Positions 4,290-53,210 of a stretch of 64,000 nt of DNA are shown piece by piece. Source of the stretch: Owenia fusiformis (Eukaryota; Annelida; Polychaeta; Sabellida; Oweniidae). A program made the translations under genes and the position numbers. The DNA is taken from contig CAIIXF020000012.1 of assembly GCA_903813345.2 (NCBI GenBank), positions 434,001-498,000 of the forward strand, given 5' to 3'. Positions within the stretch are counted from its first letter, which is position 1. Each line of letters opens with the position of its first letter. Below the pieces are notes generated by a model. That model was not told where the DNA came from. It ran no database searches and worked only from the letters and a program-made list of their open reading frames with translations.

Positions 4290-6340
4290 TAACAGACGTG
4301 CTAGTGGTATGGACGGTGTATCATCTGAGCATCTTAAATATGGTGGAATGGCACTTATTAATATTTTAACTGCGATTTTTGATGCTATTTTTAAGTATGA
4401 ACATGTACCAAGTAGTTTAAAAGTAGGAGTTATGATAACACTGTATAAAGGTGGTAACAAGGATGTTCTTGATAAAGATAACCACCGGGGAATAACTCTA
4501 ATGAGTACATATAGTAAGATATTAGATAGGTTGATTTTAAACCGTAGCAAATGTTGTGATCATTTTAATAGGTCAAAACTTCAATATGCAGCACAGTCAG
4601 GGTCATCTTGTATTGACACCTCCCTTGTCCTTAGGGAAACAGTTGCCCATCAACTTGAAAATGGCTCAGATGCCTATGTTTTGGCAATTGACGTGAAAAA
4701 GGCATTTGATACGGTTTTTACAAATGGCTTGATGTTTTTGTTATATAATCAGGGTATCAACGGAAAATTGTGGAAAATTATCTATGAGACATATGTAGGA
4801 TATCGTTGCTGTGTTAAGGTCAATGGTATATTAAGTAATTTATTTTATGTTCAACAAGGGGTCCACCAAGGTGGGGTCCTTTCTATGGAATTGTATGTAA
4901 GATTCATGAACCCTTTGTTATTAGAATTAGAGAGCTCTGGACATGGATGTCAGGTACGGGGGATAAACTGTGTTGCTCCATCGTACGCAGATGACACCAT
5001 ACTGGTATCAATGTTCAGACATAGCATGCAAGAAATGCTGCACATTCTTTATAATTATGCAAATAGATGGAGATTTGAGATCCATCCAGGGAAATGTGCA
5101 GCAGTTCACTTTACTAGAAGTAGTTTTAAAGATGTCCAACCTTTTGATTTCGGATCCGCTAAGATTCCGATAAACAAAGACCTTGTTCATCTTGGGTTAC
5201 CAGTTACACAGCGGGATATAGCCTATCACTTAGACAATGTAACATCTAGGGCAAGGCGCAATTTCTATGCCACTGTAGACTGTGTCACCCCCGAAAAGTG
5301 TAGCGTAAATCCCCTACCTGCTTCTAATTTATATTGGACTGTTTCAATTCCTACCATGCTATATGGTGTCGAGGTATTAAATTATAATGTATCAAATATT
5401 AAAACTTTAGAAAAGGTGCATGCCAATTCGGCCAGGTCAATTCAATCTCTTCCAAAGAACACAACTGATTGTGCCGCGATTGCTCAACTTGGTTGGACAG
5501 GTATAAGCGAAACTATTGCAATCAGGAAGCTCATGTATTTCTGGCACATCTTTAATACTAGTGTTGGTATTTGTAAGAAGTTAAGCATCTTTAGATGGTA
5601 TGCTATACTATATAGCTTCTTCGTAGATAAATGTGCTGTAACAGTTTCATCACCAATTAGGGAAATTATACAACTTGGAATGCAATATGATCTTATAGGA
5701 AGAATGGATAGCTATATTTCTAATAACACATTTCCATCCAAGTGGCACTGGAAAAAGATAGTGAAAAGTTCTGTTCTTACAAAGTCTCTGCAAAGATGGC
5801 GTTTTCAATGTATGACATATAATAAAATCAAACATTATAGAGAAGTAGTAACTACTCGTACTCCAATAGTCTGGTACCAGCTATGTAAATACAAACCTGA
5901 AATGATATTCAAATGTAAACTTATGGTGAGACTACTGGTTGGTGAAGGTGTTGGTCGTCATACCGAGCCAAATGTGAATAGGGTATGCCCAATGTGTAAT
6001 TCGCATGAATCTTTGTTACATTTTATTAAGTTTTGTGATGTGCTGGAAACAATTAGAGATCCTATACGACCTTACTTAGGCGGAAGTGACATAAATGTAA
6101 TTGAAAATATTTTTGCCCCAAATGAATATGATGATTGTATTATAATAGCCAGGACAGTGTATCATATGTACCAACTGAGAACTAGATTTCTCAATTCTCT
6201 AAACGTCCTGCACTAAACAACTACTGTATATTTTGTTATATTTTTGTATGTTTTTTCTTCATAACCTTTTATAACCTTTTATGTTAAACTATATGTATAT
6301 GATCAGAATTGGTCGCAATAAAGAAATATATATATATATA
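4290..6340 (+). mobile_element. 5'-truncated non-LTR retrotransposon (LINE)
   Basis: The element starts inside the reverse transcriptase domain, runs through the end of the ORF at 6216, and ends with a short 3' UTR, an AATAAA-type signal near 6318 and an AT-rich microsatellite tail near 6325-6342. No endonuclease domain is present, consistent with 5' truncation on integration. It is related to the second LINE at 21.3-24.6 kb: both share the unusual GVHQGG...SMELY stretch in the catalytic core. No clear target-site duplication was found. Confidence 0.85.
4309..6216 (+). CDS. LINE reverse transcriptase fragment (635 aa)
   Basis: This is the C-terminal part of a LINE ORF2-type protein, which copies LINE RNA into DNA at a nicked target. 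In order: fingers/palm motif NHRGITLMSTYSKI (about residues 62-75), AIDVKKAFDTVF (RT motif A, catalytic Asp), QQGVHQGGVLSMELY (template-grip region), SYADDTILV (YADD catalytic pair near residue 227), a long C-terminal domain, and CPMCN...HFIKFC, a CCHC-type zinc-knuckle near residues 565-583. The first Met is not the native start: the frame stays open upstream and the sequence aligns internally with the 992-aa LINE protein at 21.6-24.6 kb. The RT frame has no stops, so the insertion may be young. The clade was not assigned. Confidence 0.85.
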   Translation: MDGVSSEHLKYGGMALINILTAIFDAIFKYEHVPSSLKVGVMITLYKGGNKDVLDKDNHRGITLMSTYSKILDRLILNRSKCCDHFNRSKLQYAAQSGSSCIDTSLVLRETVAHQLENGSDAYVLAIDVKKAFDTVFTNGLMFLLYNQGINGKLWKIIYETYVGYRCCVKVNGILSNLFYVQQGVHQGGVLSMELYVRFMNPLLLELESSGHGCQVRGINCVAPSYADDTILVSMFRHSMQEMLHILYNYANRWRFEIHPGKCAAVHFTRSSFKDVQPFDFGSAKIPINKDLVHLGLPVTQRDIAYHLDNVTSRARRNFYATVDCVTPEKCSVNPLPASNLYWTVSIPTMLYGVEVLNYNVSNIKTLEKVHANSARSIQSLPKNTTDCAAIAQLGWTGISETIAIRKLMYFWHIFNTSVGICKKLSIFRWYAILYSFFVDKCAVTVSSPIREIIQLGMQYDLIGRMDSYISNNTFPSKWHWKKIVKSSVLTKSLQRWRFQCMTYNKIKHYREVVTTRTPIVWYQLCKYKPEMIFKCKLMVRLLVGEGVGRHTEPNVNRVCPMCNSHESLLHFIKFCDVLETIRDPIRPYLGGSDINVIENIFAPNEYDDCIIIARTVYHMYQLRTRFLNSLNVLH

Positions 6341-10509: not shown

Positions 10510-11231
10510 CTGCTAAATATTATACTATATGATTCATCGATTTTTATCGATATATTATATTAAATTTACATTTATATCATATATTTCTATGCAGGGATAA
10601 AAGTGTTTCCAAGTCTGTTTGCGAGGGTAAAGTGTTATCCCTTTAATCCTCGAGAGACACTAGTCTAATAGGCAGGACTAGGGAGCATTTATTTTATCAT
10701 CAGTTCCTAAAAATGCATCCTAATTATGCAAGCAATCAAGAATCAGGATTATACATAAATGGCAGACTTAGCAAATAATTTGAGTTTGATCGGTGATGCC
10801 ACAGCACGTATATCTTCCCAGTAAACTAGATACTTTTGTGTCAACCAGTTGCAAGAAATGATATATTTTGAATGCTGGGAAATATCCTTTCTTCCTTTCC
10901 CGGACTTAGTCAGGGGCGCTGACAAGGAATGTCCCGGTGGGCAGAGCGATGAAAGCACTTGGAAGGTAAGGAGCAGGAAGGAGCGCGATGGATGCGTTGG
11001 TGTTAGATGGCGCTACAAACTTCATGCGCTAGTATCAAGCATTCAATACCGCCTAGTGGGATCAGCAGACACAGAAGGAGTGACACTTCGGCTTTCGGGC
11101 CGCCAGCTCGGCCTTTTCGCCGGCAGGGAAGCGAGCCATTTGGATTGAAGAGAGAGACGCAACAGTTGAACAAAAGCCCCGTGCTAGAACGTCAAGTTGC
11201 ATCACTACCCCCGCCATATGACGTCGGGACA
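10510..11231 (+). promoter_or_regulatory. Probable upstream/5' leader region of the transporter gene
   Basis: This is the stretch before the proposed transporter start codon. From about 10.9 kb base composition is visibly richer in G and C than its surroundings (e.g. CGGGCCGCCAGC near 11.1 kb). A potential donor, GGAAG|GTAAGG, lies near 10.96 kb, so a 5' untranslated exon is possible. No TATA box or other site was identified with confidence. The frame upstream of the ATG is open back to 11007, but that part resembles no SLC6 N-terminus. Confidence 0.3.
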
Positions 11232-11312
11232 ATGGCACCGGAAGTGATAATAAAAGATGGAAAGCCACATTTAACGGATTCTGAAGCGCCCCTTGCAGAA
11301 ACAGATGCTCAG
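11232..11312 (+). CDS. SLC6A4: SLC6A4-like exon 1: start codon and N-terminal tail
   Basis: The ATG at 11232 has a G at +4 and an A at -3 (ACAATGG). It encodes 27 residues, [13 protein letters not shown]... to ...ETDAQ, and ends in phase 0 at CAG|GTAAAT. The next coding exon starts in phase 0, giving ...[13 protein letters not shown], which fits the HQ-GERETW region just before TM1 of human SERT. No homology identifies the first 20 residues; assignment rests on phase, position and the donor. The last bases plus the donor resemble the 36-bp unit that fills the following intron. Confidence 0.6.
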
Positions 11313-14300
11313 GTAAATGAAGTTATCTATGTTTATGCTAAAACAAAGGTAAATGAAGTCACCTATGCTGATGCTAAAACAAAGGTAGATGAAGTTACCT
11401 ATGTTGATGTTAAAACACAGGTAAATGAAGTTACCTATGTTGATGTTAAAACACAGGTAGATAAAGTTACCTATGTTGATGTTAAAACACAAGTAGGTGA
11501 AGTTACCTATGTTGATGTTAAAACACAGGTAAATGAAGTTACCTATGTTGATGTTAAAACACAAGTAGATGAAGTTACCTATGTTGATGTTAAAACACAG
11601 GTAAATGAAGTTACCTATGTTGATGTTAAAACACAAGTAAATGAAGTTACCTATGTTGATGTTAAAACACACGTAGATGAAGTCACCTATGTTGATGTTA
11701 AAACACAGGTAAATGAAGTTACCTATGTTGATGTTAAAACACAGGTAGATGAAGTTACCTATGTTGATGTTAAAACACAGGTATATGAAGTTACCTATGT
11801 TGATGTTAAAACACAGGTATATGAAGTTACCAATGTTTATGCTAAAACACAGGTAAATGAAGTTACCTATGTTAAAGTTAAAACACAGGTAAATGAAGTA
11901 ATCTATGTTGATGTTAAAACACAGGTATATGAAGTTACCTATGTTGATGTTAAAACACAGGTAAATGAAGTTACCTATGTTGATGTTAAAACACACGTAG
12001 ATGAAGTCACCTATGTTGATGTTAAAACACAGGTAAATGAAGTTACCTATGTTGATGTTAAAACACAGGTAGATGAAGTTACCTATGTTGATGTTAAAAC
12101 ACAGGTATATGAAGTTACCTATGTTGATGTTAAAACACAGGTATATGAAGTTACCTATGTTTATGCTAAAACACAGGTAAATGAAGTTACCTATGTTGAA
12201 GTTAAAACACAGGTAAATGAAGTTACCTATGTTGATGTTAAAACACAGGTAAATGAAGTTACCTATGTTGATGCTGAAACACAGGTAGATGAAGTTACCT
12301 ATGTTGATGGTAAAACACAGGTAAATGAAGTTACCTATGTTGATGCTGAAACACAGGTTAATGAAGTTACCTATGTTGATGTTAAAACACAGGTAAATGA
12401 AGTCACCTATGCTGATGCTAAAACACAGGTGAATGAAGTTATCTATGTTGATGTTAAAACACAAGTAGATGAAGTTACCTATGCTGATGCTGAAACACAG
12501 GTAGATGAAGTTACCTATGTTGATGGTAAAACACAGGTAAATGAAGTTACCTATGTTGATGCTGAAACACAGGTAAATGAAGTTACCTATGTTGATGGTA
12601 AAACACAAGTAGATGAAGTTACCTATGCTGATGTTAAAACACAGGTAAATGAAGTTACCTATGTTGATGTTAAAACACAGGTAAATGAAGTTACCTATGT
12701 TGATGTTAAAACACAAGTAAATGAAGTTACCTATGTTGATGTTAAAACACAGGTAAATGAAGTTACCTATGTTTATGCTAAAACACAGGTAAATGAAGTT
12801 ACCTATGTTGATGTTAAAACACAGGTAAATGAAGTTACCTATGTTTATGCTAAAACACAGGTAAATGAAGTTACCTATGTTGATGTTAAAACACAGGTAA
12901 ATGAAGTTACCTATGTTGATGTTAAAACACAGGTAAATGAAGTTACCTATGTTGATGTTAAAACACAGGTAAATGAAGTTACCTATGTTGATGTTAAAAC
13001 ACAGGTAAATGAAGTTACCTATGTAGATGTTAAAACACAGGTAAATGAAGTTACCTATGTTGATGTTAAAACACAGGTAAATGAAGTTACCTATGTTGAT
13101 GTTAAAACACAGGTAAATGAAGTTACCTATGTTTATGTTAAAACACAGGTATATGAAGTTACCTATGTTTATGCTAAAACACAGGTAAATGAAGGTACCT
13201 ATGTTGATGTTAAAACACAGGTAAATGAAGTTACCTATGTTGATGTTAAAACACAGGTAAATGAAGTTACCTATGTTGATGTTAAAACACAGGTAAATGA
13301 AGTTACCTATGTTGATGTTAAAACACAGGTAAATGAAGTTACCTATGTTGATGTTAAAACACAGGTAGATGAAGTTACCTATGTTGATGTTTAAACACAG
13401 GTAAATGATCGTAATCTATGTTTATGCTAAAGCACAGGTAAATGAAGTCACCTATGCTGATGCTAAAACACAGGTAAATGAAGTTACCTATGTTGATGTT
13501 AAAACACGGGTAAATGAAGTTACCTATGTTGATGCTAAAACACAGGTAAATGAAGTTACCTATGTTGATGCTGAAACACAGGTAGATGAAGTTACCTATG
13601 TTGATGGTAAAACACAGGTAAATGAAGTTACCTATGTTGATGCTGAAACACAGGTAAATGAAGTTACCTATGTTGATGTTAAAACACAAGTAGATGAAGT
13701 TACCTATGTTGATGGTAAAACACAAGTAGATGAAGTAGTCTATGTTGATGTTAAAACACAGGTAAATGATCGTAATCTATGTTTATGCTAAAGCACAGGT
13801 AAATGAAGTTACCTATGTTGATGGTAAAACACAAGTAGATGAAGTTACCTATGCTGATGCTGAAACACAGGTAAATGAAGTTACCTATGTTGATGGTAAA
13901 ACACAAGTAGATGAAGTTACTTATGCTGCTGCTGAAACACAGGTTAATGAAGTTACCTATGTTGATGGTAAAACACAGGTAAATGAAGTTACCTATGTTG
14001 ATGTTAAAACACAGGTAAATGAAGTTACCTATGTTGATGTTAAAACACAGATAAATGAAGTTACCTATGTTGATGTTAAAACACAGGTAGATGAAGTTAC
14101 CTATGTTGATGTTAAAACACATGTAAATGATCGTAATCTATGTTTATGCTAAAGCACAGGTAAATGAAGTTACCTATGTTGATGTTAAAACACAAGTAGA
14201 TGAAGTTACCTATGTTGATGTTAAAACACAAGTAGATGAAGTTACCTATGTTGAAGTTAAAACACAGGTTAATGAAGTTACCTATGTTGATGTTAAAACA

Positions 14301-17300
14301 CAGGTATATGAAGTTACCTATGTTGATGTTAAAACACAAGTAGATGAAGTTACCTATGTTGATGTTAAAACACAGGTAAATGAAGTTACCTATGTTGATG
14401 TTAAAACACAGGTAAATGAAGTTACCTATGTTGATGTTAAAACACAAGTAGATGAAGTTACCTATGTTGATGTTAAAACACAAGTAGATGAAGTTACCTA
14501 TGTTGATGTTAAAACACAGGTAAATGAAGTTACCTATGTTGATGTTAAAACACAGGTAAATGAAGTTACCTATGTTGATGTTAAAACACAAGTAGATAAA
14601 GTTACCTATGCTGATGCTGAAACACAGGTAAATGATCGTAATATATGTTTATGCTAAAACAAAGGTAAATGAAGTTACCTATGTTGATGTTAAAACACAG
14701 GTAAATGAAGTTACCTATGTTGAAGTTAAGACACAGGTAAATGAAGTTACCTATGTTGATGTTAAAACACACGTTAATGAAGTTACCTATGTTGATGCTA
14801 AAACACAGGTAAATGAAGTAATCTATGTTGATGTTAAAACACAGGTAAATGAAGTCACCTATGCTGATACTGGAACACAGGTAGATGAAGTTACCTATGT
14901 TGATGTTAAAACACAGGTAGATGAAGTTACCTAAGTTGATGTTTAAACACAGGTAAATGAAGTTACCTATGTTGATGTTAAAACACAGGTAAATGAAGTT
15001 ACCTATGTTGATGTTAAAACACAGGTAAATGAAGTTACCTATGTTGATGTTAAAACACAGGTAGATAAAGTTACCTATGTTGATGTTAAAACACAAGTAG
15101 ATGAAGTTACCTATGTTGATGTTAAAACACAAGTTGATGAAGTTACCTATGTTGATGTTAAAACACAGGTAGATGAAGTTATCTATGATGATGTTAAAAC
15201 ACAGGTAAATGAAGTTACCTATGTTGATGTTAAAACACAGGTAGATAAAGTTACCTATGTTGATGTTAAAACACAAGTAGATGAAGTTACCTATGTTGAT
15301 GTTAAAACACATGTAGATGAAGTTACCTATGTTGATGCTAAAACACAGGTAGATGAAGTTACCTATGTTGATGTTAAAACACAGATAGATGAAGTTACCT
15401 ATGTTGATGTTAAAACACAGGTAGATGAAGTTACCTATGTTGATGGTAAAACACAAGTAGATGAAGTAGTCTATGTTGATGTTAAAACACAGGTATATGA
15501 AGTAGTCTATGTTGATGTTAAAACACAAGTAGATGAAGTTACCTATGTTGATGTTAAAACACAAGTAGATGAAGTTACCTATGTTGATGGTAAAATACAA
15601 GTAGATGAAGTAGTCTATGTTGATGTTAAAACACAAGTAGATGAAGTTACCTATGTTGATGTTAAAACACAAGTAGATGAAGTTACCTATGTTGATGCTA
15701 AAGCACAGGTAGATGAAGTTACCTATGTTGATGTTAAAACACAGGTAGATGAAGTTACCTATGTTGATGTTAAAACACAAGTAGATGAAGTTACCTATGC
15801 TGATGCTGAATCACAGGTAGATGGAGCTACCTATGTTGATGTTAAAACACAGGTAGATGAAGTTACCTATGTTGATGTTAAAACACAGGTAGATAAAGTT
15901 ACCTATGTTGATGTTAAAACACAAGTAGATGAAGTTACCTATGTTGATGCTAAAACACAGGTAGATGAAGTTACCCATGTTGATGTTAAAACACAGGTAG
16001 ATGAAGGTACCTATGTTGATGTTAAAACACAGGTATATGAAGTAGTCTATGTTGATGTTAAAACACAAGTAGATGAAGTTACCTATGTTGATGTTAAAAC
16101 ACAAGTAGATGAAGTTACCTATGTTGATGGTAAAACACAAGTAGATGAAGTAGTCTCTGTTGATGTTAAAACACAAGTAGATGAAGTTACCTATGTTGAT
16201 GTTAAAACACAGGTAGATGAAGTTACCTATGTTGATGTTAAAACACAAGTAGATGAAGTTACCTATGTTGATGTTAAAACACAAGTAGATGAAGTTACCT
16301 ATATTGATGTTAAAACACAGGTATATGAAGTTACCTATGTTTATGCTAAAACAAAGGTAAATGAAGTTACCTATGTTGATGTTAAAACACAGGTAAATGA
16401 AGTTACCTATGTTGAAGTTAAAACACAGGTAAATGAAGTTACCTATGTTGATGTTAAAACACAGGTAGATGAAGTTACCTATGTTGAAGTTAAAACACAG
16501 GTAGATGAAGTTATCTATGTTGATGTTAAAACACAGGTAAATTATGTTACCTATGCTGATCCTAAAACACAGGTAGATGAAGTTATCTGTGTTGATAGAT
16601 ACTGCCAAGTTCCTTTCCCGACATTTTTTTAAAATCAGTATATTTTTGTATTTTCGTTTCGCTACTCTTGAACGCTACTACCTCCTTCCCAAATAAATAT
16701 ATTGTTCGAAAGGGCTTATCTATGCATTTTAGAATTCAACAGTCGTAAGATCAATTCTAGAACATTTGAAGGGAATTAGGTTACAACAGTATTAATTTAG
16801 ACGAAAGGAATGAGGTAAACAAGCGAATTATCTTCATGTCGGGGCTACTAATATGTCAAGGTTTGTCTAGAAACTGTTTAATCTATTTTTCAGTTGAAAT
16901 GACTTCAAAATGAAAAGGTTATAAGTAACTCTATATGTAAGAATAGGTACAGTGCTATTACAGAATTTTCCCCCCCGAGGGCTTATGATATGGGTTCACT
17001 TAGCCAAACCACAATATTTGCTCATCCACAGGAGATCAGTCCTGAAAATGATTGAGGGTTACGTATAACCGGACAACATGTTACCAGTTACAATTACTTA
17101 AACTAAAAGGGGGTAAACAGAGAGATCGGGTGATGGGGTACTGACAGATAGTTTTATAGAGTGATACGAAGTGATCGATTGGGCGCATAGCTTAGGATGA
17201 GTCTGTTGTAAATATTACAGGAAGAAGAGAGAGAAACATGGAGCAAGAAACTCGACTTCCTTCTCTCCGTCATCGGATTCGCTGTGGACCTTGGGAACGT

Positions 17301-20300
17301 CTGGCGGTTTCCCTATATCTGCTACAAGAACGGCGGAGGTTGGTTTCACTTTCTTAGTCATCTTAATAATTGAATGGCCACCGTTGTCTTCAGATAGGGG
17401 CATTCCCTTAACGTATTGTGTGAGGTTGATGTATGTTGTATTTTCCAGGGGCGTTCCTCATTCCGTACCTCGTAATGCTGATTTTTGGAGGCCTTCCATT
17501 GTTCTACCTTGAGTTGGCAATGGGGCAATTCCAGAGAACTGGCTGCATCACCGTATGGACAAGAATATGCCCAATGTTTAAAGGTAATTCAAAGGGAATT
17601 CCAAAAGTAATTTACCAGCTATATGTGTTTATATCAGAATATATTCTAGGTAATTTTCAATGGAAAATGTGTGCTACATCTACGCTAACTGCAAACTACA
17701 AATAGCTGTCTGGGTGTTTAATGATGCATATAATACTCTATATTTGTGTATATGTATCCGACCACTACAGAGCATCAGCACATTTTTACGTAGAGTGATC
17801 ACACGGTAAAATTGTCTCATCAACTTTCATCCGACTTAATCCAAGTTAAACGAAAACAAGATTTGCGGCGACGTTTGAATTTATCGCCGAAATCACACCG
17901 ATGAATAATAACAGATTGATCTAGAATTTATGTCTTTATGATAGCATAAATACTGAATATTAGATTCTTTGTCATATTTCCTACGTTACTGTCTATTTCG
18001 ATGATTGTCTTATTGACGTTGGTAGAAATGGATCGAAATAACTATTGCAATGACCGATGTTTAATATCCAAATGATAAAAGTTGTAGGAAATAATTTTTA
18101 AGAACCTAAAACTAATCTTAAAAAATATCATTTATTTCTTTAAATTATTTTGATTAGCTAATATGCCAATATCAGTGTAAAATTGTTGTTTTGAATAACA
18201 TTCTGATATTTTTGATTTTTCAAATAGACCCCAGGTGTCATTTCACATTTGTTTCCCAAAGCCCTAAAGATTCAATTGTAAAATTGATTTCTCCGAAGAT
18301 TTATTGGAATCCATGCATTTTCAAAAACGTTATATTGAAATAAAAATATGGACGTTTTGCCCACCCTGTACATATATGTTTTGTCTCACTATAGGTATAG
18401 GGTACGGCATCTGTATATGTGCTTTCTACGTGGCAATCTATTACAACACTATCATCGCTTGGGCCGTCTTTTATCTGGGGTCTTGCTTTCAAGCACAGGT
18501 AATACTACATCATCCATTGAATTCATATTCGCTATATGGACTAAACGACAGATCACAAAAGCTTCGCCGGCGTACCTGATCTATTCTCCATAATTGAAAT
18601 CTTATGTAACAAAACAGTAATTATAACTTGTCTGAAATCACAACCAATGTTACAGTATTACTATTTAGTACTTTGTTCATTAATTGAAATCGTTAACTAA
18701 ACAATAGGTTCCCTGGGCGACGTGCAATAACGAGTGGAACACTGAAAACTGCACCTCCCTAGCATTCCCTGATGAAAACTCAACTGTTCACAGTAACTTC
18801 TCTGAATCATCAGCAGAAGAATTTTTCAGGTAAAAATAACGGAATATTTCAACTTGAATATGGTCACGACCTGAAACGTACGGCGTACGGTGTCTGGTAA
18901 AATTCAAACAATGTGTATGCGTTTCAGGCGGAGGGTACTTCAAATAAATTTGTCTACTGGTATAAATGACATAGGCGGCATACGGTGGCCTATAATGTTA
19001 TGTTTGATGGCAGTATTTCTGGTAGTCTACTTCGCTCTATGGAAAGGAATCAAAAGTGTCGGAAAAGTAAGTCGGACTATGAATAAGAACAAGTAAGTTT
19101 TGCATCATTTCCCAACATACCATATGTAGCCATGTTTATACTATTCTATTATGGTGACATAACACCAAAAGGTAGCTCGGCAGTTTGGGTTACTATCTAG
19201 TATAGCTACTAGTCCTGTTAATACTATCCTCTATTTGTGACGTGGATAGTTTGGATGACCACTTCTTCGTATCATTCTCTCTTCATGACTTAAGCAGTTT
19301 GAGTGACCGATACTTTGCCATATATACAGGGTGTCTGGAAAGGATGGGACCCCCTAGCAGACATATACCAATGTCTCCATAGTATATTCCATATATTATT
19401 TTAAAGGTTATCCAAAGATACATTGATACAAGTATCATGGTTCAACTTACTAAATGGGAAAAAGTTACTGGTACAATGTATTTCAAAACTTAAGTGATTT
19501 GGCTAAAATTCAAATTCAGATCAGTATCCTGTTAACAGCTCTGACCTGAATGTGAACGGAAATATGCTAGGTAGAATGGATATTGAGTTGGAAAAGGGAC
19601 GGCGAGGGCAGATATATCGGACCCTCCCTCTCTGCGATTTTAATATTGTCGTAAGCCTTTATCAATTACCTCTTACCGTTTTTGAAAAAAGTAGGACCTA
19701 GGGGGTGCACACTTTTATATTTTGTGATAAATTGTCAATGTTCTTTCACAATAAATCTTTTGGTGACAAAAACAATTCGCTGACTTAATGAATAATCTAT
19801 TATCTTTCAAATTAAGCTAAAATCATGGTAAAAGGTTTTATAGAACTAAAGTTTTACACTTTCAAAGATAGCACGCATTGAAATCCAATTGAAACCAATG
19901 TAACATGAAATTTAAAAGTCAGTAATTCAACTTGTTTTTGTCTTCATCATTCATATTTCAAGATGTACAACAAATGCCAATCAGTAATTTAGTATGCAGT
20001 TGTATGAATGTATGACTTCGTATTGTTCCTTGATTTATACCCATAAAAGTGTCTTATATCTGTGGCTCACGCAAAAGAATTTGCAAAAAGGACTCTTGAA
20101 AAATCGAGAGGGGGGGGGGGGGGTCGGATTGACATTAAGGTTAATGTCATATCTGAAAAGAATGGCTGCTGTTAACATGGCCTAGGGCGACACACCGACT
20201 ATTAATCTGGTGTAAAGTTGAATTTTAATTTTGGCCAAACACCAAATTTGAAATGCCTGTAACTTTTCCCATTTAAGAGTTGATGTTAACCAATGTAATT

Positions 20301-23300
20301 CTGGATTAACTTTAAAATGATATATGCCATACTATGTAGACATTTGAATATGTCTGCCTGGGGGGGGGGGGGGGGGGTCCATACTTTCTGGATCCTGTAG
20401 TCATGTTCATACTATTCGTAGGCAGTTTGGGTGACCGCTACGTTACCATATATAGTCTTGTTCATAGTATTCTCTTTGTGACGTAGGCAGTTTGGGTGAC
20501 CGCTACGTTACCATATATAGTCTTGTTCATAGTATTCTCTTTGTGACGTAGGCAGTTTGGGTGACCGCTACTTTACCATATATAGTCCTGTTTATACTCC
20601 TAATCCGGGGAGTTACCCTGCCTGGATCTGCTGATGGCATCCTCTACTATATCACTCCGCAGTGGGATAAACTCCAAAATAGACAGGTAATGATTTTCAC
20701 TCATTAGAACCTCTTTATAAATCAAATAGCACTTTTCCGTAACGTGAACCTAACCTAATAACTAACTCTCTCACAACAGTGTGAATCTGCTTATATTGTA
20801 ACATTGGATTATATGACAATTGTAAAACATTTCTATCACATGGAAGGTCTGGACGGCTGCAGCTTCACAAATCTTTTTCTCCCTGGGCCCTGGTTTCGGC
20901 GTACTTCTAGCACTCTCTAGTTACAATAAGTTTCACAATAACTGCTACAGGTATAGCCATTTTGTATGTTGTGTGTTCATATAATATTATATGCACAGAG
21001 AATATGCAAGGGTTACATCAAGAACAAAGTATACATTTATTATTGTAATGTTAACACAAGCAGTGACTCAGTCAAATGTAAAATTCAATGAAAGACGAGA
21101 TGAGATGAATCATCCCGATTGAATATTTGTTGATCCAATTTTTATGTTTTCGTTTTCAGGGATGCCCTTATAACAAGCAGCATAAATTGCCTTACCAGCT
21201 TCCTTGCAGGGTTTGTTGTATTTTCTGTACTTGGATACATGGCTTTCAAACAGGGCAAAGACATCGAGAAAGTGGCAGAGCCTGGTTATTATTATTATTA
21301 TATTTATTGCCCCTCCAATCATGGAGATAATATATCATTACAGTATATAATAAATGTAATAAAAATAAAGATTTATAAAAATACAAAGACAAGTGGAAAG
21401 CATTGATACAGCAGAACCCTCCTGGTTAGCCCATGTTCTCCCCTGGGGGTCCCACTGCACCACTGTGCGAACCATTACGATTTCAAAATGAGAAGGAAAT
21501 TATATACAAAAGCAGTTGTCTAGGACATCACCAGGAGTGCCAATCACGCCTCTTTGTTGACATCCTGATTGGTGCTTCGTGTTACAGTATCACTCCATCC
21601 TTAGAATGTACATATTTTGCACAGCTGTTGAGATGCATTTAAGATCTTCGTTTGTTAGAGTCTCATCTCCTCCAAATATGCACCGTAGCTTCAGTATGTT
21701 AGTCATGTGTCTCCCATTGGGTATCCCATGTAATATATTTGTTATATTTGTTCTTAATGAGCAGTATCTGGGGCATTCCAAGATGAAGTGCTCCAGAGTT
21801 TCAATGCGTTGCATGTCACACATTCCACATATGCGATCATACACCGGAATATTTTCCCATTCACCGGTAATAGCTCGGAGTTTTCCTTGACCCGTGAGCA
21901 GTCGTACCATCAGGGTGCATCTCTTAATGTATCCACAGTCCTGCCTAGCTATTTCCCACCAGGCAATCGGTTTTGTACCAGTGACTACAGTTCGGTATAA
22001 TGTTAATTTATCATATGTAATAAGTTCTCTTCTCCACATGTTGCATTCAAAAGTCCTTACTATATTCCTAATATATCGTTTCCAGGTAGATTTTGGGGGA
22101 ACTTCACCACTGTCCATCATTTCATATATCACGTTTGATATGCCAAACCGTGATGCGAGTGTCATTATGTCACCAATAGGTGACATTTTGTGTAGCGGGT
22201 TACTGTCATATCTGAACTTCGTGATACGCTTTATTGCTATGGTACGGAAGATCGAACCTGATACCTGAGATAGAAGTTGTAGCAGGAACATCATTTTAGC
22301 CACTACTATAGTCGCCGTCATAGTATGCCAGCCTAGTTGGGGTAGGACAGCTGGGTCAGATGTGCTTACTGGCAGGCCTTGTAGTTGTTTGCATATACTT
22401 CTATGTCCCTGCTCGAGCATCTTATAATCGGTTTCACTGAGGGGGACAAGTTCCATTCCATACGTCATAGAAGGCATACTGACAGACCAATATAACTTAG
22501 ACGCAGTGAGGGGGTTGGTTGGGTTCTGGGTGTGTGTTGTTGTCCCAACATATGCATTCATTGCTCTCTTTCCTTTTGATAGTGCAGACTCTATCAGTTC
22601 TCTATTACTGTTGTAGTTCGACATTGGAAGGCCGACATGTTGTGTTGTTTGGACTACATCTATTGTACGACCTCCAAGTTGTAAGTCTATTCCTGCCTGT
22701 TGAGTGGCACGACTATTACTAAATATGATGGCCTTACATTTGTCCGGATGATAATTGAAGCGCCATTTAATGCTATACTGATGCATCATGTTTAAGATGT
22801 CTTGCATTGTCTTTTTATGATAGGCAATAATGACAGTATCATCAGCATAGGATGGACATGTACATAGTACATCACCCACAGAGCACCCTTTACCAGAGTC
22901 AATCACATCTAAGAGAAGCCTATTCATATACTCCCCGTATAGCTCCATGGAGTACAATCCTCCCTGATGAACTCCCTGAGAGATCGGGAACTTATCTGAG
23001 AGTGTGACGTCATTACCACACCTTACTGCGCACTGGTAGTCACTGTAGCATAGTCGCAACATCCTCCATATCTTCCCATGTATCCCAAGATTAAAAAGCT
23101 TGTAGAAGAGGCCATTGTGCCACACCGTGTCGAAGGCCTTGCTAATGTCCATTGTGACCATTATGACGTCATTACCACTTTCAAGGCCATTACATATGGC
23201 TTCTCTTGTCAGAAGCGATGTGTGGAGACATGACGTCATGGTCTTGTTTGCGGCCTGCATCTCTGACTTCGGCTCAATCCTATGGCACCTCCTGCTCCGC

Positions 23301-26300
23301 GTTACCATAATCTTTTCCCATAACTTCATGAAGGTCGTCATCAGCGTCAGGCCCCTATGGTTGTCCTTCTCCAAAATATCCTTGTTTCCTCCTTTAAAGA
23401 TGGGGATTAGTACACCAAGTTTAAAGCTATCTGGGATGTGCTCCAGTCTTATTATATGGTTGTACAATGCTACAAGTATATTGGCAAGTGCGTCTCCACC
23501 AAAGCGTAAATGTTCAGTGCTGATTTCATCCCACCCTGTAGCCTTGTTTCGAGAGAGGTTGTTAATTAAAGTAGTCATCTCTTTGTAGTTTATAGGATCA
23601 TTTAACGCTTCATCATCATTGTTAAAACTGTCCTGCAGCATTTCTACTATTCTTGTGTTAATCACATGTTCATGATTACTGTCAAAATTATCATTTGGCT
23701 TTATTGACATTAATGTTTTAAAATAATTCATCCATTCACTCCGGATCTCATCAGTCTGTGTTAAGATTATTCCGTCCTTATTACGTATAGAATAGCTACT
23801 ATTACTCCGATTCCTCCGTCTCTTAACAATAAACCAAAATTGCTTCAAGCTTATCTCTCCCGCTCTGTCGATTTCCTCCTGACATTCCATCTCATACTTG
23901 TACTCAGCACGACGGATTTCCCGCCTGAATTGGCGCTTTGCAGTCTTATAGCGAATCCAGTGCTCATTCTCTTTGTTCCTTGGTCTTCCATTCAACTTCC
24001 ACATCTTGAATGCTGACTTCTTGTCTGTAGATAACTGGCTCAGTGTATCAGACCAGTATGGCTTTAAGTGCTTCTTGAAAGACCTTCTAGGTATAGCATC
24101 AGCTGACACAGACTTTAAAACATCAGTCAGTTCATCAAACAGGGAATCAAGTAGTTCAGGCGTTACCTCAGACTTACTATTAATTAGCTTATCAGAGAGG
24201 GGTTTAAGAGATAGTGTCAAGGGAGCTGTATACCTCTCATAAAGCGCATTTGCATCAAGCTTATCCCATGCTAGCTTCACTGGGTTACAATTGTCAGAGG
24301 AGGGTGTGATTGGCACTAAGGTAGATGTTTCTAGTACGACCTGCAAGGGTAAATGGTCAGAATTATTTATCAATTCATCATCAATCACTTTTACAGTTTT
24401 AACTTTCTGAGCATATTCTTCTGAAACAAGGCAGTGATCAATATAAGATCTTCCTACATTTTCTCTATAATATGTATACTCTGGGCCAGAACCCTTATCT
24501 GTTAAGTCAATCACATTTAAACTACATCGAATACACATATCATTTAACAATACACCGTTACTGTTCATCTTACCAGCACCTCGACAAATAGGTACAAGAT
24601 ATATTTGTTGTATTTTCTGTACTCGGATACATATCCTTTAAACAGGGCAAAGCCATAAAGACTGTGGTAGAGTCTGGTAATATATTTGTTGTATTTTCTG
24701 AACTCGGATACATGGCCTTCTAACAGGGCAAAGGCGTCAAGACTGTGGCAGAGTCTGGTACGATATATTTGTTGTATTTTCTGTACTCGGATACATAGCC
24801 TTCAAACAGGGCAAGGCCATAAAGACTCTGGTAGAGTCTGGTAAATTATTTTTGTCGTATTTATGTTCTTTGATAAATGGCCTTCAGACCGGACAGAGCC
24901 ATAAAGACTGTGGGAGAGTCTGGTAAGTTATATTTGTTGTATTTTCTGTACTCGGATACATAGCCTCCAAACAGGGCAAGGCTATAAAGACTGTGGGAGA
25001 GTCTGGTAAGTTATATTTGTCATATTTTCTGTGCTTGGATACATAGCCTTCAGACAGGACAGAGCCATAAAGACTGTGGTAAAGTCTGGTAAGATGTATT
25101 TGTTGTATTTTATGTTCTTTGATAAATGGCCTCCAGACTGGGCAAAGTCATCAAGACTGTGGCAGATCCTGGTAAGATATATAATTTGCTGTTATACATT
25201 CCAAGTGTAGAAGGCACAGAGAGATTAACATACATATATACACAACATAAGGTTTGAAAGACTCCGATTTTCCATGACCGCGATCAAGGTGTCTTTGTTT
25301 ATGTTTTGGTAACAGAGTGACAACTTTAATGGTAAACAAGTGACCATTGTTCATATTGTCGCTGGGATATCACTTTTATTTTCTGATTGATAGGTCCTGG
25401 ACTTGTCTTCATAGCATACCCGGAAGCTCTTGCAACTTTAGATGGCGCTGTATTCTGGTCGTTCATATTCTTTACTATGCTTATTATGCTCGGGCTTGAC
25501 ACAACCGTAAGTGTTATGTTAACTTATTTTGCCAGGTACTAAAGCCATCGCAAAGTTGTATTAACTTATTTCCAATTTTGGAAAAAGCATACATTTTTAT
25601 TTGCACATAATATAGTTTTCTAGAATTGCAGCCAAAGCGACCACCGAAAGCAAAATATGGCAGGACCTATTATTATTTAATGTTTTAGTTTGGTGGGTTG
25701 GAAGCAATAATTACAGCCGTCCATGACGAGTACCCAGCTACTCTGAAGAGACGAGAACTGTTTGTTGCTGTCTTGATCGTGTTCATTTTCTTTGGTGCAC
25801 TTCCTACAACAACATATGTAAGTATAACCACCACAATATGACTTAAGATTAACACGCAGTGAGTCCCATCAAGGACTTGCCAGAAAACCTTCTCTAGTTC
25901 TCTTTCATCTCTATTGCACGGCGGTCACCAGGAAGTTTGGTACATCCGACATGTACAATTTAGTAGGGAATCTGTTCTATTACAGGGAGTCTCATCATGG
26001 ACTTTCTTGTGACTACCATGTAAGTCCCTTTCATCATTTTCCAGGGAGGTAATTATGTCATTCAGCTGCTGGACACACATGGGGCTCCAATTGCTCTTCT
26101 GTTCATCGTCTTTGTTGAGGCAGTTGCAGTTAACTGGTTCTATGGTATGTAGTTTTTTCGTTTTCTTCTGATTAAATCAAATATTCAATGAAAAGTTAAT
26201 AGGCCTAGTTCAGGTTAAAAAGATTTTTGCCGAATTTTCTTTACTTTGAATTGCATGTATTTCTCATTTTTGTTGCTTTTTAATTATCGTTGAATCTCTC

Positions 26301-29300
26301 TCTTTAAAATTGTTAATATCATTTTATACACGAGTTCATTGTACAGTAAAAAGGTTTACCATCTTGTAGATGGTAAATAAAATAACATATAGTACAGGGT
26401 GACACAAAAAGTCATCATAAAAAGTTGCAATCTCTATGAATTTTCTGAAGTAGACCCTTCGATCCACAAAAAATACTAAAGGTATTCCGAAAGTAAAAGA
26501 TGAAATCAGGTCTTTGTGTTACGATGGATGTAATTTAACCAGCTTTTCACATTTTCAAACCATGAATTCAACAGTTTAGACATTTCCAAACCATGAATTC
26601 AACAGTTAAGACATTTCCAAACGATGAATTCAACAGTTTAGACATTTCCAAACCGTGAATTTAACAGTTTAGACATTCCCAAACCATGAATTCAACAGTT
26701 AAGACATTTCCAAACCATGAATTGAACAGTTTAGACATTTTCAAACCATGAATTCAACAGTTTAGACATTTCCAAACCATGAATTCAACAGTTTAGAGAT
26801 TTTCAAACCATGAATTCAACAGTTTAGACATTTCCAAACCATGAATTCAACAGTTTAGACATTTCCAAACGATGAATTCAACAGTTCAGACATTTCAAAA
26901 CGATGAATTCAACAGTTTAGACATTTCCAAACCGTGAATTTAACAGTTTAGACATTCCCAAACCATGAATTCAACAGTTAAGACATTTCCAAACCATGAA
27001 TTCAACAGTTTAGATATTTCCAAACCATGAATTCAACAGTTTAGACATTTCTAAACCATGAATTCAACAGTTAAGACATTTTCTAACCATGAATTCAACA
27101 GTTTAGACATTTCCAAACCATGAATTCAACAGTTTAGACATTTACAAACCATGAATTCAACAATTTAGACATTTCCAAACGATGAATTCAACAGTTTAGA
27201 CATTTCCAAACGATGAATTGAACAGTTTAGACATTTCCAAACCGTGAATTTAACAGTTTAGACATTCCCAAACCATGAATTCAACAGTTTAGACATTCCC
27301 AAACAATGAATTCAACAGTTTACACATTCCCAAACCATGAACTCAACAGTTTAGACATCCCAAAACATGAATTCAACAGTTTAGACATTTCCAAACCATG
27401 AATTCAACAGTTTAGACATTTGCAAACCATGAATTCAACAGTTTAGACATTTCCAAACGATGAATTCAACAGTTTGGACATTTCCAAACCATGAATTCAA
27501 CAGTTTAAACATTTCCAAACGATGAATTCAACAGTTTAGACATTTCCAAACCATGAATTCAACAGTTTAGACATTTCCAAACCATGAATTCAACAGTTTA
27601 GACATTTCCAAACCGTGAATTTAACAGTTTAGACATTTGCAAACCATGAATTCAACAGTTTAGACATTTCCAAACGATGAATTCAACAGTTTAGACATTT
27701 CCAAACCGTGAATTCAACAATTTAGACATTCTCAAACCATGAATTCAACAGTTTAGACATTTCCAAACGATGAATTCAACAGTTTAGACATTTCCAAACC
27801 GTGAATTCAACAGTTTAGACATTTTCAAACAATGAATTCAACAGTTTAGACATTTTCAAACGATGAATTCAACAGTTTAGATATTTCCAAACCATAAATT
27901 CAACAGTTTAGACATTTCCAAACGATGAATTCAACAGTTTAGACATTTCTAAACCATGAATTCAACAGTTTAGACATTTCCAAACCATGAATTCAACAGT
28001 TTAGACATTTCCAAACCGTGAATTTAACAGTTTAGACATTTACAAACCATGAATTCAACAGTTTAGACATTTCCAAACGATGAATTCAACAGTTTAGACA
28101 TTTCCAAACCGTGAATTCAACAGTTTAGACATTCTCAAACCATGAATTCAACAGTTTAGACATTTCCAAACGATGAATTCAACAGTTTAGACATTCTCAA
28201 ACCATGAATTCAACAGTTTAGACATTTCAAATCCATGAATTCAACAGTTTATTCATTTCCAAACCGTGAATTTAACAGTTTAGACATTCTCAAACCATGA
28301 ATTCAACAGTTTAGACATTTCAAAACCATGAATTCAACAGTTTAGACATTTCCAAACCATGAATTCAACAGTTTAGACATTTTCAAACCATGAATTCAAC
28401 AGTTTAGACATTTCCAAACATGAATTCAACAGTTTAGACATTTCCAAACCATGAATTCAACAGTTAAGACATTTCCAAACCATGAATTCAACAGTTTAGA
28501 CATTTCCAAACGATGAATTCAACAGTTTGGACATTTCCAAACCATGAATTCAACAGTTTAGACATTTCCAAACGATGAATTCAACAGTTTAGATATTTCC
28601 AAACCATGAATTCAACAGTTAAGACATTTCCAAACCATGTATTCAACAGTTAAGACATTTCCAAACCATGAATTCAACAGTTTAGACATTTCCAAACGAT
28701 GAATTCAACAGTTTGGACATTTCCAAACCATGAATTCAACAGTTTAGACATTTCCAAACCATGAATTCAACAGTTAAGACATTTTCAAACCATGAATTCA
28801 ACAGTTAAGACATTTCCAAACCATGAATTCAACAGTTTAGACATTTCCAAACGATGAATTCAACAGTTTGGACATTTCCAAACCATGAATTCAACAGTTT
28901 AGACATTTCCAAACCATGAATTCAACAGTTTAGACATTTCCAAACCGTGGATTTAACAGTTTAGACATTTGCAAACCATGAATTCAACAGTTTAGACATT
29001 TCCAAACCATGAATTCAACAGTTTAGACATTTCCAAACATGAATTCAACAGTTTAGACATTTCCAAACCATGAATTCAACAGTTAAGACATTTCCAAACC
29101 ATGAATTCAACAGTTTAGACATTTCCAAACGATGAATTCAACAGTTTGGACATTTCCAAACCATGAATTCAACAGTTTAGACATTTCCAAACGATGAATT
29201 CAACAGTTTAGATATTTCCAAACCATGAATTCAACAGTTAAGACATTTCCAAACCATGTATTCAACAGTTAAGACATTTCCAAACCATGAATTCAACAGT

Positions 29301-32300
29301 TTAGACATTTCCAAACGATGAATTCAACAGTTTGGACATTTCCAAACCATGAATTCAACAGTTTAGACATTTCTAAACCATGAATTCAACAGTTAAGACA
29401 TTTCCAAACCATGAATTCAACAGTTAAGACATTTCCAAACCATGAATTCAACAGTTTAGACATTTCCAAACGATGAATTCAACAGTTTGGACATTTCCAA
29501 ACCATGAATTCAACAGTTTAGACATTTCCAAACCATGAATTCAACAGTTTAGACATTTCCAAACCGTGAATTTAACAGTTTAGACATTTGCAAACCATGA
29601 ATTCAACAGTTTAGACATTTCCAAACGATGAATTCAACAGTTTAGACATTTCCAAACCGTGAATTTAACAATTTAGACATTCTCAAACCATGAATTCAAC
29701 AGTTTAGACATTTCCAAACGATGAATTCAACAGTTTAGACATTCTCAAACCATGAATTCAACAGTTTAGACATTTCAAAACCATGAATTCAACAGTTTAG
29801 ACATTTCAAAACCGTGAATTGAACAGTTTAGACATTCTCAAACCATGAATTTAACAGTTTAGACATTTCAAAACCATGAATCAACAGTTTAGACATTTCC
29901 AAACCATGAATTCAACAGTTTAGACATTTCCAAACCATGAATTCAACAGTTTAGACATTTCCAAACCATGAATTCAACAGTTTAGACATTTCCAAACCAT
30001 GAATTCAACAGTTAAGACATTTCCAAACCATGAATTCAACAGTTTAGACATTTCCAAACGATGAATTCAACAGTTTGGACATTTCCAAACCATGAATTCA
30101 ACAGTTTAGACATTTCCAAACCATGAATTCAACAGTTTAGACATTTCCAAACGATGAATTCAACAGTTTAGATATTTCCAAACCATGAATTCAACAGTTT
30201 AGACATTTCCAAACCATGAATTCAACAGTTTAGACATTTCCAAAACCATGAATTCAACAGTTTGGACATTTCCAAACCATGAATTCAACAGTTTAGACAT
30301 TTCCAAACGATGAATTCAACAGTTTAGATATTTCCAAACCATGAATTCAACAGTTTAGACATTTCCAAACCATGAATTCAACAGGTTAGACATGACTTTA
30401 GTTGTATCAAACCTCAGATTGACGTATCAAAAGTGGAAACGCGTTTATCAATTTGTTGAATTTTTGTATCACTCTATACTAAACTAAACTTTTTGTTAGC
30501 TAAATGTATCAATGTAAGGACATTCTTACTTGATATTTTCTTAATGAGATTTAATCTTACTGGCCATCTCATTTAGGGGTACGTCGGTTTAGTGCTGATA
30601 TCAAAACGATGCTCGGGGCAGGACCAGGAATATTTTGGAAGATATGCTGGGCAGGAATTAGTCCTATATTTCTTTTCGTAAGTATCACATTTATTATGTA
30701 CCTTTTTATAGTGCAACCCAAAATAACAATGACACGTTTTAGAACCGAAGTGTAACCCAAAATAACAATGACACCTTTTAGAACCGAAGTGCAACCCAAA
30801 ATAAGAATGACACGTTTTTAGAACCAAAGTGTAACCCAAAATAACAATGACACGTTTTAGAACCAAAGTGTAACCCAAAATAACAATGACACGTTTTAGA
30901 ACCAAAATGCAACCAAACTAGCAATGACACGTTTTTGAACCAAAGTGTAACCCAAAATAACAATGACACGTTTCAAGAACCAAAGTGCAACCCAAAATAA
31001 CAATGACATGTTTTAGAACCAAAGTGTAACCCAAAATAACAATGACACGTTTTAGAACCAAAATGCAACCGAAAATAAGAATGACATGTTTTAGAACCAA
31101 AATGCAACCGAAATAACAATGGCACATTTAAGAACCGTACCAAATAGTTTGTTTTCATAAAGTCAAGTTAAAAATCAGAAACCCCAATTAATAATTGTTC
31201 ACATTCTCAAAGTAATATTTCAAATGTACATGATACAGGCTTCGGGATGTACACTTATAAATATATGAGCACAAGTGCCAAAGGGAAAGGACCAAAAGTT
31301 GTAATGGAACTTCGCAAGAAAAAGCAAACTCTAAGTGCATACCAGTCAAGAAAAACAAACCCCATATAGCCCAAAACAATGATCTCACGTGAAAAGAAAC
31401 AATGTCTAATACCCCCTTCCCCCCACCATTCAAGAACCAATATCACAATCCAAGACCAGAAGACCAAGGGACATTTCATTCATACTGAAGTCATTCCAAT
31501 ACATGTTGAAGAAAAATTGAAAAATTGATAACCAATACTCAACCTCAAAAATAGTTGTAGATACAAGTACTCGTACAAGATAGAGCATTCAGTCTCAAAT
31601 GATGTGGGATAGATAAAATCCAGTCTCCAAGTCCATAGACGTTTCATCCATTCACAAAAGCCGTCGCCATAATCCATAAAACACAATAATTCACAATGGT
31701 CATCAGGAGAAAACTATGGCTGGTTTCGATCCCTATTTCTCAACCATTAATGCCATAGCCGGGATCCACCTCAAAAGGTGCCAAGTGAAAATATTGTGAG
31801 TTCATTGTATATGTATTTTCAGTTCAGCGTATGTGTATTTTCTGTAATGTTTTCTTATAGATTCTCTTCATAATGTCATGTGTGGACTATAATCCAGATG
31901 AAATGGACAAGAACTATCAGTATCCACGCTGGGCTATAGCAATGGGATGGTTAGTTACGTGTTCTTCGATCATTTGCATACCGATATACCTCATTTACAA
32001 GTTCATAGCAACGGAAGGGTCCATAGCTCGTGTAAGTGTTATTGCAATGCTTAAACATTCCATGTAATTGTATATCTTAAGGTGGCTTATCCCCTTTTTT
32101 ACAAATGATAATTCTTGTGCAAGTTTGGTCAAATCATGGGAGTATGGGACATTTCCCTGTAACAATTTTTGGAAGAAATGTGTATAGTCATAGAGTAATA
32201 ATAATTAAAGTTATTAATTACTTTTCTATATTGATTAAGCAGATCAGCTTTGTATTCTACAGACGTTTTTCTATTAAGATCTAGGAGTACGTATTAATAT

Positions 32301-38267: not shown

Positions 38268-39010
38268 TTAATTATAGTCAAAACTTTGAGAGTTTTCTTC
38301 CCTCCATTTATGTTTTGAAGTCTGATCTACAGCTAATGTTTCAACTTCCTGGGAGTCACTGGAAGATAGTCCATTTATGGGGGAGATATTCTTTTGCTGT
38401 GTGTTTGACTTGTGACGCACAAATGTTTGACTGTACGCCTGCCTGGGGGTCAAATATTCCTCCTCTATATTCCTGATTGGGGGCAAGACTTGGGGTGAGG
38501 GACGGAGCTCAACTTTCACTTCAGGTTTTGGATGATGTAGAAATGGTGACGGATCTGGAGGGACTGGTAACTTACGCCCAGAAGACACCCTCCCTGCAGA
38601 GATATCCTGAATATCTAACCCTGCAGGAGTGGTTGAACTTTTCCGGAGACTACTTCTCCGTCTTGATGGAGCGCCATCTTTAGGCGGTGCAGGACTATGT
38701 GAGAATCGTTCTTGTTGGTCTTTGCTATGTGACTCGTTATATCTCATTTGGACAACCTTCATCTGATGTAACTGGTGAGTTATTGCTACAATATTATCTG
38801 TCTTCATCTCAAGTTCTCTGTTGAGTTTCTGAACAGTTATATCTTTCTCTTTGAGCTTATCACACAGTCTCTTCTCCTGTGCTTTAAGTTGCTGTTCTAA
38901 CATGGCAATTTTTCTATCCTTTTTCTCAATTTGTTTTTCAAGGTCAGCTTTGTTGGTATCCCTTTGTACAAGAGATTCCTCCAATGATTTTACACGTCTG
39001 ATGTAGTGGT
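38268..39010 (-). CDS. CCDC92: CCDC92-like exon 3: coiled coil and C-terminal tail
   Basis: Acceptor TTGTTTCAG. It encodes DHYIRRVKSLEESLVQRDTN, a heptad-rich helix to about residue 145 of the full protein, then a Ser/Pro-rich basic tail ending QSFDYN and a stop. The frame extends past 39010 as far as 39176 but that part lacks homology, and the acceptor fixes the boundary. Confidence 0.92.
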
Positions 39011-41572: not shown

Positions 41573-41730
41573 ATGTCTTATAATCTAAAGTTTGTGGTGG
41601 TAAAAGGTGTAAATTGAGATACAGTTAATCCAACATTGTATCTGCTACTGTCTGCTAATGATCATCTGAAAATAAAAGTAAATCGGCCTAAAGCAAAGAC
41701 GAACAGCTGCTAAATGACTGATCATCAATC

Positions 41731-42530
41731 AGGCCCATTTGAGACCTCATGATGATAAGATGGTATAGCATTTTGCCTGTATAGAGTGTGTATATCTGAT
41801 GTACACATCAGGCCCATTTGAGACCTCATGATGATAAGATGGTATAGCATTTTGCCTGTATAGAGTGTGTATATCTGATGTACACATCAGGCCCATTTGA
41901 GACCTCATGATGATAAGATGGTATAGCATTTTGCCTTTATAGAGTGTGTATATCTGATGTACACATCAGGCCCATTTGAGAGCTCATGATGATAAGATGG
42001 TATAGCATTTTGCCTTTATAGAGTGTGTATATCTGATGTACACATCAGGCCCATTTGAGACCTCATGATGATAAGATGGTATAGCATTTTGCCTGTATAT
42101 GGTGTGTATATCTGATGTACACATCAGGCCCATTTGAGAGCTCATGATGATAAGATGGTATAGCATTTTGCCTTTATAGAGTGTGTATATCTGATACACA
42201 TCAGGTCATATTTGAGAGCTCATGATGATAAGATGGTATAGCATTTTGCCTTTATAGAGTGTGTATATCTGATGTACACATCAGGCCCATTTGAGACCTC
42301 ATGATGATAAGATGGTATAGCATTTTGCCTTTATAGAGTGTGTATATCTGATGTACACATCAGGCCCATTTGAGACCTCATGATGATAAGATGGTATAGC
42401 ATTTTGCCTGTATATGGTGTGTATATCTGATGTACACATCAGGCCCATTTGAGACCTCATGATGATAAGATGGTATAGCATTTTGCCTGTATAGAGTGTG
42501 TATATCTGATGTACACATCAGGTCACATTT
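41731..42530. repeat. 79-bp tandem array (10 units) upstream of CCDC92
   Basis: The unit begins AGGCCCATTTGAGACCTCAT and ends ATATCTGATGTACACATC; it repeats at 41731, 41810, 41889 and so on. Units differ at few sites (GAGACC or GAGAGC; TGTATAGAG, TTTATAGAG or TGTATATGG). It lies 5' of the CCDC92-like coding start. Minus-strand frames here are repeat artefacts. Confidence 0.93.
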
Positions 42531-53029: not shown

Positions 53030-53210
53030 ATCATCTAACAACGCTGTACAACGTTGTTAACAACGTTGTACAACGTCGTTTGAACAACGTTGACAAGTGT
53101 CGTTCGAGTACAGTGTTGTACAACGTTGTTTGACCAACAACGTTGTTCAACGTTGTTTGAACAGTATTGTACAACGTTGTTTCTTGAACGGTACCGTACA
53201 GCGCCGTTTT
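53030..53210. repeat. Palindromic ACAACGTTGT array, copy 1
   Basis: Repeated AACAACGTTGTACAACGTTG-type motifs. Each 10-mer ACAACGTTGT is its own reverse complement, so the array can fold on itself at many registers. A similar array lies at 63.42-63.65 kb, and both have the shared CAAAGTTGTAGC segment nearby, suggesting one repeat family. Confidence 0.85.

Follow-up and report, generated by a model that had tools for sequence, protein, structure and literature searches.

A donor-repeating minisatellite in the first coding intron of a predicted annelid serotonin transporter gene, probably spliced out from its first copy

A predicted serotonin-transporter (SERT) gene of the annelid Owenia fusiformis carries, at the 5' splice site of its exon 1, a 36-bp minisatellite of 147 units in which the splice donor recurs with nearly every unit. 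We consider it likely that this minisatellite was seeded at the splice site and that the donor at 11312 is joined to the acceptor at 17221, the array being spliced out together with intron 1. Both the origin of the array and the choice of its first donor are what we infer from the array, its donors and a gene model built on homology. Coordinates refer to the window, that is, the whole stretch of 64,000 nucleotides that was analysed.

Gene model and first exon

The SERT gene lies on the + strand at 11232-32410 and comprises 15 exons and 593 codons with no internal stops, the coding sequence being intact across the exons. Exon borders were placed by hand on splice motifs and homology, and the model is a predicted one.

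11232..11312, + strand: coding portion of exon 1 (27 codons) with a phase-0 donor, CAG|GTAAAT, supported by N-tail homology
17221..17338, + strand: exon 2, acceptor in phase 0
17449-17583, 18395-18498, 18708-18829 and 18928-19066, + strand: exons 3-6, from splice motifs and homology
20552-20686, 20847-20950 and 21160-21284, + strand: exons 7-9, from splice motifs and homology
25394-25506, 25689-25817 and 26045-26144, + strand: exons 10-12, from splice motifs and homology
30577-30677, 31861-32031 and 32306-32410, + strand: exons 13-15, from splice motifs and homology

A search with the predicted protein returned 7739 relatives in total. Among the 120 listed, the named ones are mostly SERTs; identity reaches at most 69% (an unnamed sequence), with 66% for the annelids Capitella and Owenia, 65% for a brachiopod, 64% for a nemertean and molluscs close behind, and the best E-value belongs to a hypothetical protein of Sousa chinensis that is 47% identical. 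Among solved structures, serotonin transporter chains give the top score at 730 bits, and transporters of noradrenaline (672) and dopamine (662) follow. A tree built on 33 SERT rows gave no clear phylum for the sequence; a lophotrochozoan source is likely. Judged by its sequence, the gene is SERT (SLC6A4), a full-length member of the SNF family nearer to SERT than to other SLC6 proteins. The original prediction, which had called it a serotonin transporter, holds in this respect, since the listed relatives and the structure scores put SERT first.

The same prediction had placed exon 1 here, with a phase-0 donor at 11312 and a phase-0 acceptor of exon 2 at 17221, and the gene model bears this out. 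Independent support for the placement comes from the N-tail that native splicing would produce: joining 11312 to 17221 gives 30 residues (by the cut used for the relatives) that match the short N-termini of molluscan SERTs. In an alignment with 16 relatives of our choosing, 10, mostly molluscs, share the N-terminal pattern MTP or similar (M-x-P) ... DG ... ERE-T/S/K-W, among them octopus, abalone, limpet, Gigantopelta and Aplysia, and the annelid, chiton and brachiopod rows give no clear N-tail alignment at the M-x-P ... DG stretch. As far as homology can tell, exon 1 is correctly placed. The true start of SERT could lie 5' of 11232, because many relatives have longer N-termini.

The array and its donors

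The minisatellite opens with the three bases that end exon 1 and falls into two parts with respect to the frame of that exon.

11310..16596, + strand: 36-bp minisatellite of 147 units, defined by TRF and unit alignment, each unit opening with CAG|GTAAAT or a variant of it
11313..13394, + strand: stretch of the array that keeps the exon 1 frame, with 57 full units and a terminal TAA at 13392
13395..16596, + strand: part of the array past that stop, 89 units (59-147)

The consensus unit is CAGGTAAATGAAGTTACCTATGTTGATGTTAAAACA. TRF counts 146.8 copies over 11310-16596, of which 146 units align free of gaps and the last is partial; 137 matches to a 22-mer (at most 3 mismatches) were found in the real sequence, compared with 0 in every one of 100 shuffles. 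The figure of about 57 units given originally is right for the units in phase up to the stop, and the coordinates that went with it, ending at the first in-frame stop, take in some 40% of the full 147-unit array. Four post-stop units carry an extra base (13398, 13759, 14120 and 14625) that shifts the frame, and unit 101, also past the stop at 13392, contains a further in-unit stop. For exact 100-mers the commonest spacing between copies is 9 units, followed by 1 and 10. The array starts at the donor, because exon 1 upstream of the CAG has no similarity to the unit, 636 of 1000 shuffles scoring equally well; the same comparison lends no support to exon 1 as the source of the unit. In the window as a whole, nothing reaches the gathering scores of Rfam.

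That the donor recurs in phase after exon 1, as had been noted from the outset, is confirmed by the counts: up to the stop at 13392, GT is present in all 57 units (2-58), in identical phase, and AG|GT in 49. Past the stop GT persists in 87 of 89 units, and over all gap-free units GT is found in 144 and AGGT in 105 of 146. On a donor score matrix, 33 of the 57 decoys in frame equal or exceed the native CAG|GTAAAT, as do 62 of all 147 array sites, the native one included. The best donors do not cluster near exon 1: on average, units 41-58 score highest and units 101-120 lowest.

Within the 36 columns of the unit alignment there is no sign of selection on the donors, whose columns vary more than the remainder: mean variability is 0.094 in the nine donor columns and 0.070 in the four columns of AGGT, against 0.041 in the other 27. 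Ranked by conservation, the donor segment comes 32nd of 36; columns -1 and +4 are among the three most variable in the unit, and positions +1/+2 are nearly fixed, like several columns outside the donor. These properties bear on a proposal that the array serves as a regulatory sink, whose dense U1 sites would act on transcription, on premature polyadenylation or through non-productive splicing, the last meaning retention of the array, termination at 13392 and decay. Donors at least as strong as the native one do occur at 11.7 per kb in the array compared with 0.22 per kb on the + strand of the window outside it, and AATAAA and ATTAAA, which elsewhere on that strand occur at 1.24 and 1.62 per kb, are absent from it. 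Both features, however, follow from the repetition of a single unit, and conservation of the donor columns does not exceed that of the others; we therefore regard a sink of this kind as improbable.

Masking of the decoys by RNA hairpins was considered and rejected. Among five stretches that were folded, the consensus unit pairs AGGUAA (-8.6 kcal/mol, z -2.4), and the values for the native donor, which does not stand out, are -4.2 kcal/mol and z 0; the closure of the consensus is ordinary, 17% of 400 shuffles being equally closed, and the native donor, folded with its surroundings, shows no greater openness than the decoys, ranking 85th of 147 in accessibility and 35th of the 62 sites with an identical 9-mer. 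Nor are the units likely to act as acceptors or recursive splice sites, since the sequence leading to the CAG is poor in pyrimidines (mean 0.41, maximum 0.47, compared with 0.41-0.88 for the 14 acceptors of the gene), although the acceptor of exon 5 is equally poor (0.41).

Sister arrays in the same gene

Two further arrays of the SERT gene are built on copies of exon borders, and a retroelement stands beside one of them; two other arrays lie within introns.

19179-19326, + strand: older, decayed copies of the exon 7 acceptor, followed by about 1 kb of other sequence before the younger copies
20417..20596, + strand: 65-bp array repeating the exon 7 acceptor together with the initial ~45 coding bases, the last copy being exon 7 itself
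21285..24590 (right edge approximate), - strand: retroelement at the exon 9 donor, with an ORF at 21590-24568 matching RVT_1
24604..25173, + strand: 83-bp array repeating the 3'-terminal ~73 bases of exon 9 with the donor, 6 BLAST matches and 7 donors
26549-30393, intron 12: 31-bp array of ~124 copies, with no exon border inside by coordinates
30710-31136, intron 13: 39-bp array, with no exon border inside by coordinates

Of three acceptors from which exon 7 was read, 20422 and 20487 lead to stops and 20552 to an open frame; the protein is evidently made from the exon-proximal acceptor, which by analogy would point to the exon-proximal donor at exon 1. At exon 9, the retroelement, which would be of the non-LTR type, separates the exon from its 83-bp copies. 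The donor left beside it, CTG|GTTATT, scores 1.6 bits with the same matrix, the weakest of 14 donors, and the exon-9-like copies past the element have stronger ones (4.8 to 10.7 bits). A haplotype with CTG|GTTATT may splice exon 9 poorly, and because this donor is weak, expression of SERT is not certain.

Three of the five main arrays of the gene span a splice site, that of exon 1 by three exonic bases. When unit-length segments are placed at random, at least three arrays fall across splice sites in ~0.27% of cases. This figure is post hoc and takes no account of the short 22-bp array at 31792-31842, which would be the sixth, or of the TRF rows that duplicate the same arrays.

Origin of the array and choice of donor

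The explanation we prefer starts from a tandem duplication of the beginning of intron 1, exon-1 donor included. Such a duplication would have been tolerated, since splicing from the first copy still discards everything downstream, and the array could then have expanded to 147 units by slippage or unequal exchange. The functional transcript would most likely join the exon-proximal donor at 11312 to exon 2 at 17221, and one or a few neighbouring donors might be used occasionally, adding 12-residue repeats as a by-product. The open frame would stem from a stop-free unit with a length that is a multiple of three, homogenised by copying, rather than from selection. In favour of the first donor stand the N-tail of the short molluscan kind, the lack of any sign of constraint on coding sequence or donors, and the behaviour of the sister arrays; such a donor might win by being close to the cap or through first-exon definition.

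Several observations argue the other way. As many as 33 of the 57 in-frame decoys read CAG|GTAAAT like the native donor, RNA accessibility fails to single the latter out, and the first third of the array is open in phase with the ATG, as is the case in few permuted arrays (see below). Nor would a longer tail be strange, as SERT tails in other animals are often longer: of the 120 listed hits (7739 in total) all but 2 contain the anchor, and the N-tails of these 118 measure 10 to 268 residues with a median of 72, a span suggesting that the length as such is not tightly constrained. The main argument against the first donor comes from the treatment of competing donors in PMC5585400, where SRSF1 favours the intron-proximal donor in some contexts and hnRNP A1 the intron-distal one; the SRSF1 preference would draw splicing into the array.

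The 118 anchored tails also bear on a second explanation, possible in our opinion yet doubtful, in which the first few donors compete in the manner of human IFI6 and yield stable isoforms with 0, 1, 2 and so on 12-residue repeats, the rest of the array being inert. It overlaps with the preferred explanation and draws on the in-phase repetition of donors and on the human case itself, for which PMC4526556 reports that two downstream minisatellite units serve as donors, giving three mRNAs. Against it, the donors nearest to exon 1, AAG|GTAAAT in unit 2 and AAG|GTAGAT in unit 3, differ from the native 9-mer, and the 12-residue repeat of the array occurs in none of the 118 anchored tails (of 120 listed among 7739). 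The closest 12-residue window in these tails, over all rotations of the unit, agrees at 7 of 12 positions and belongs to an insect; other repeated four-residue words appear in 3 of the 118.

Reading frame of the array

From the ATG at 11232 the frame runs uninterrupted for 720 codons to the TAA at 13392-13394 (27 of exon 1, 57 x 12 and 9 more), exactly as had been claimed. Upstream of this ATG it is also open, back to another ATG at 11007 (11007-11231), for an ORF of 795 aa in total. Openness of this kind is weak evidence for coding, because tandemised 36-mers are so often open by chance: in 20000 draws from the window outside the array, a given frame was open in 45% and at least one of the six frames in 97%. 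On the minus strand an ORF of 481 aa covers 11271-12716, and in-unit stops affect 1 of 146 units in the minus frame compared with 2 of 146 in the plus frame.

The pattern of substitution was examined in the same units, with counts by codon position and synonymy that are small. Units 1-57 contain 16 distinct non-synonymous and 6 synonymous single-base variants, out of 79 and 24 possible ones plus 5 that would create stops, and units 58-146 contain 32 and 7, with 3 stops. Codon positions 1, 2 and 3 of units 1-57 hold 8, 6 and 8 distinct variants and 34, 24 and 18 variant cells; the third position is thus not the freest. Neither the synonymous excess nor the non-synonymous depletion expected of a protein-coding VNTR is seen, at 16:6 compared with 79:24 and on small numbers. 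When columns were permuted in 500 arrays, the first 57 units stayed open in 12%, and units with an in-unit stop averaged 4.4 compared with 2 in the real array, which leans toward coding constraint, though permutation also breaks the linkage between columns.

The original prediction had proposed that choice among the in-frame donors sets the length of the SERT N-terminus. The persistence of frame and phase through 57 units speaks for an N-terminus selected to be tunable in this way. We nevertheless judge it very unlikely and the claim unsupported, as neither the coding sequence nor the donors show any sign of constraint, 89 units (87 of them retaining GT) come after the in-frame stop, the repeat is missing from the 118 anchored SERT tails, and no relative of the repeat ORF was found among 8000 candidates scored; the exon 7 array, where only the exon-proximal of the three acceptors read keeps the frame, weakens it further. 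The corresponding family of SERT isoforms, with 0-57 repeats by choice among 58 donors and an array length that varies between individuals, deserves equally little credence.

That the array ORF is itself expressed as a repeat protein, of 795 aa from 11007 or 720 aa from 11232, is extremely improbable: beyond its length it can claim a nominal hit to the Pfam family FAM47 (30.9 bits against a cut-off of 27; E 2.6e-07), in which no single stretch passes and which is probably a repeat artefact, and against it stand the 8000 candidates without a relative, the lack of a coding signature and the similarly open minus-strand frame.

Comparison with known systems

The human IFI6 gene (6-16, G1P3) contains a minisatellite reportedly described by Turri, Cuin and Porter in 1995 as providing multiple splice donors. 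Its 12-bp unit is present in about 26 copies starting at the donor of exon 2, and in an array of this type the unit length is a multiple of three and the downstream donors are in frame; minisatellites in general are polymorphic in length. The SERT array is alike in beginning at an exon donor and repeating it unit by unit, with a unit that is a multiple of three and donors in frame up to the stop, though not for the 89 units beyond. It differs in its 36-bp unit and 147 copies, in its position within the first coding intron of a transporter gene, in the location of most units past a stop, and in that use of its downstream donors is putative. We see in human IFI6 the closest precedent for the SERT arrangement, which has a longer unit and many more copies and resides in another gene and animal group.

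A second parallel is the gain of introns by tandem duplication of segments containing AGGT (the Rogers model), a motif that the SERT units share in 105 of 146 cases. In fission yeast, as PMC4974935 describes it, 24-bp AGGT repeats supply splice sites and the introns span several duplicates. The SERT array, unlike that model, holds donors only, and the acceptor at 17221 is unique and lies 625 bp beyond the array.

Tandem repeats also occur in the early non-coding part of the human SERT gene, namely 5-HTTLPR and the 17-bp STin2 VNTR in intron 2 of SLC6A4. In PMC11311659, STin2 is described as creating transcription-factor sites; the array reported here, in contrast, repeats donors. Our literature search found no array of this type in a serotonin transporter, which is no proof of absence.

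With dozens of native-identical nine-base donors within one intron, the array amounts to a natural competition test of 5' splice-site choice, and the identity of the donor used would inform first-exon definition. The position of three of five main arrays across splice sites suggests that such duplications may be tolerated, exon-proximal splicing removing the rest, and tolerated duplications of this sort would be a possible route for the growth of minisatellites at exon borders.

Other elements of the window

The window is rich in tandem arrays outside the SERT gene as well.

4309-6216, + strand: long, open reverse-transcriptase ORF matching RVT_1
39344-41106: minisatellite, 55 bp x 32
41728-42531: minisatellite, 79 bp x 10

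The RVT_1 ORFs at 4309-6216 (+) and 21590-24568 (-) are both probably of the non-LTR type. Two 11-bp arrays, at 47111-47241 and 50841-50971, are identical in unit, copy number and score and lie 3730 bp apart, pointing to duplication of a segment or to two copies of one element. On the minus strand, 38268-39176 holds an ORF of 302 aa that gives no Pfam match and has, by eye, a coiled-coil-like stretch; it possibly belongs to a second gene. Palindromic repeats of the ACAACGTTGT type form clusters at 53037-53182 and 63416-63649.
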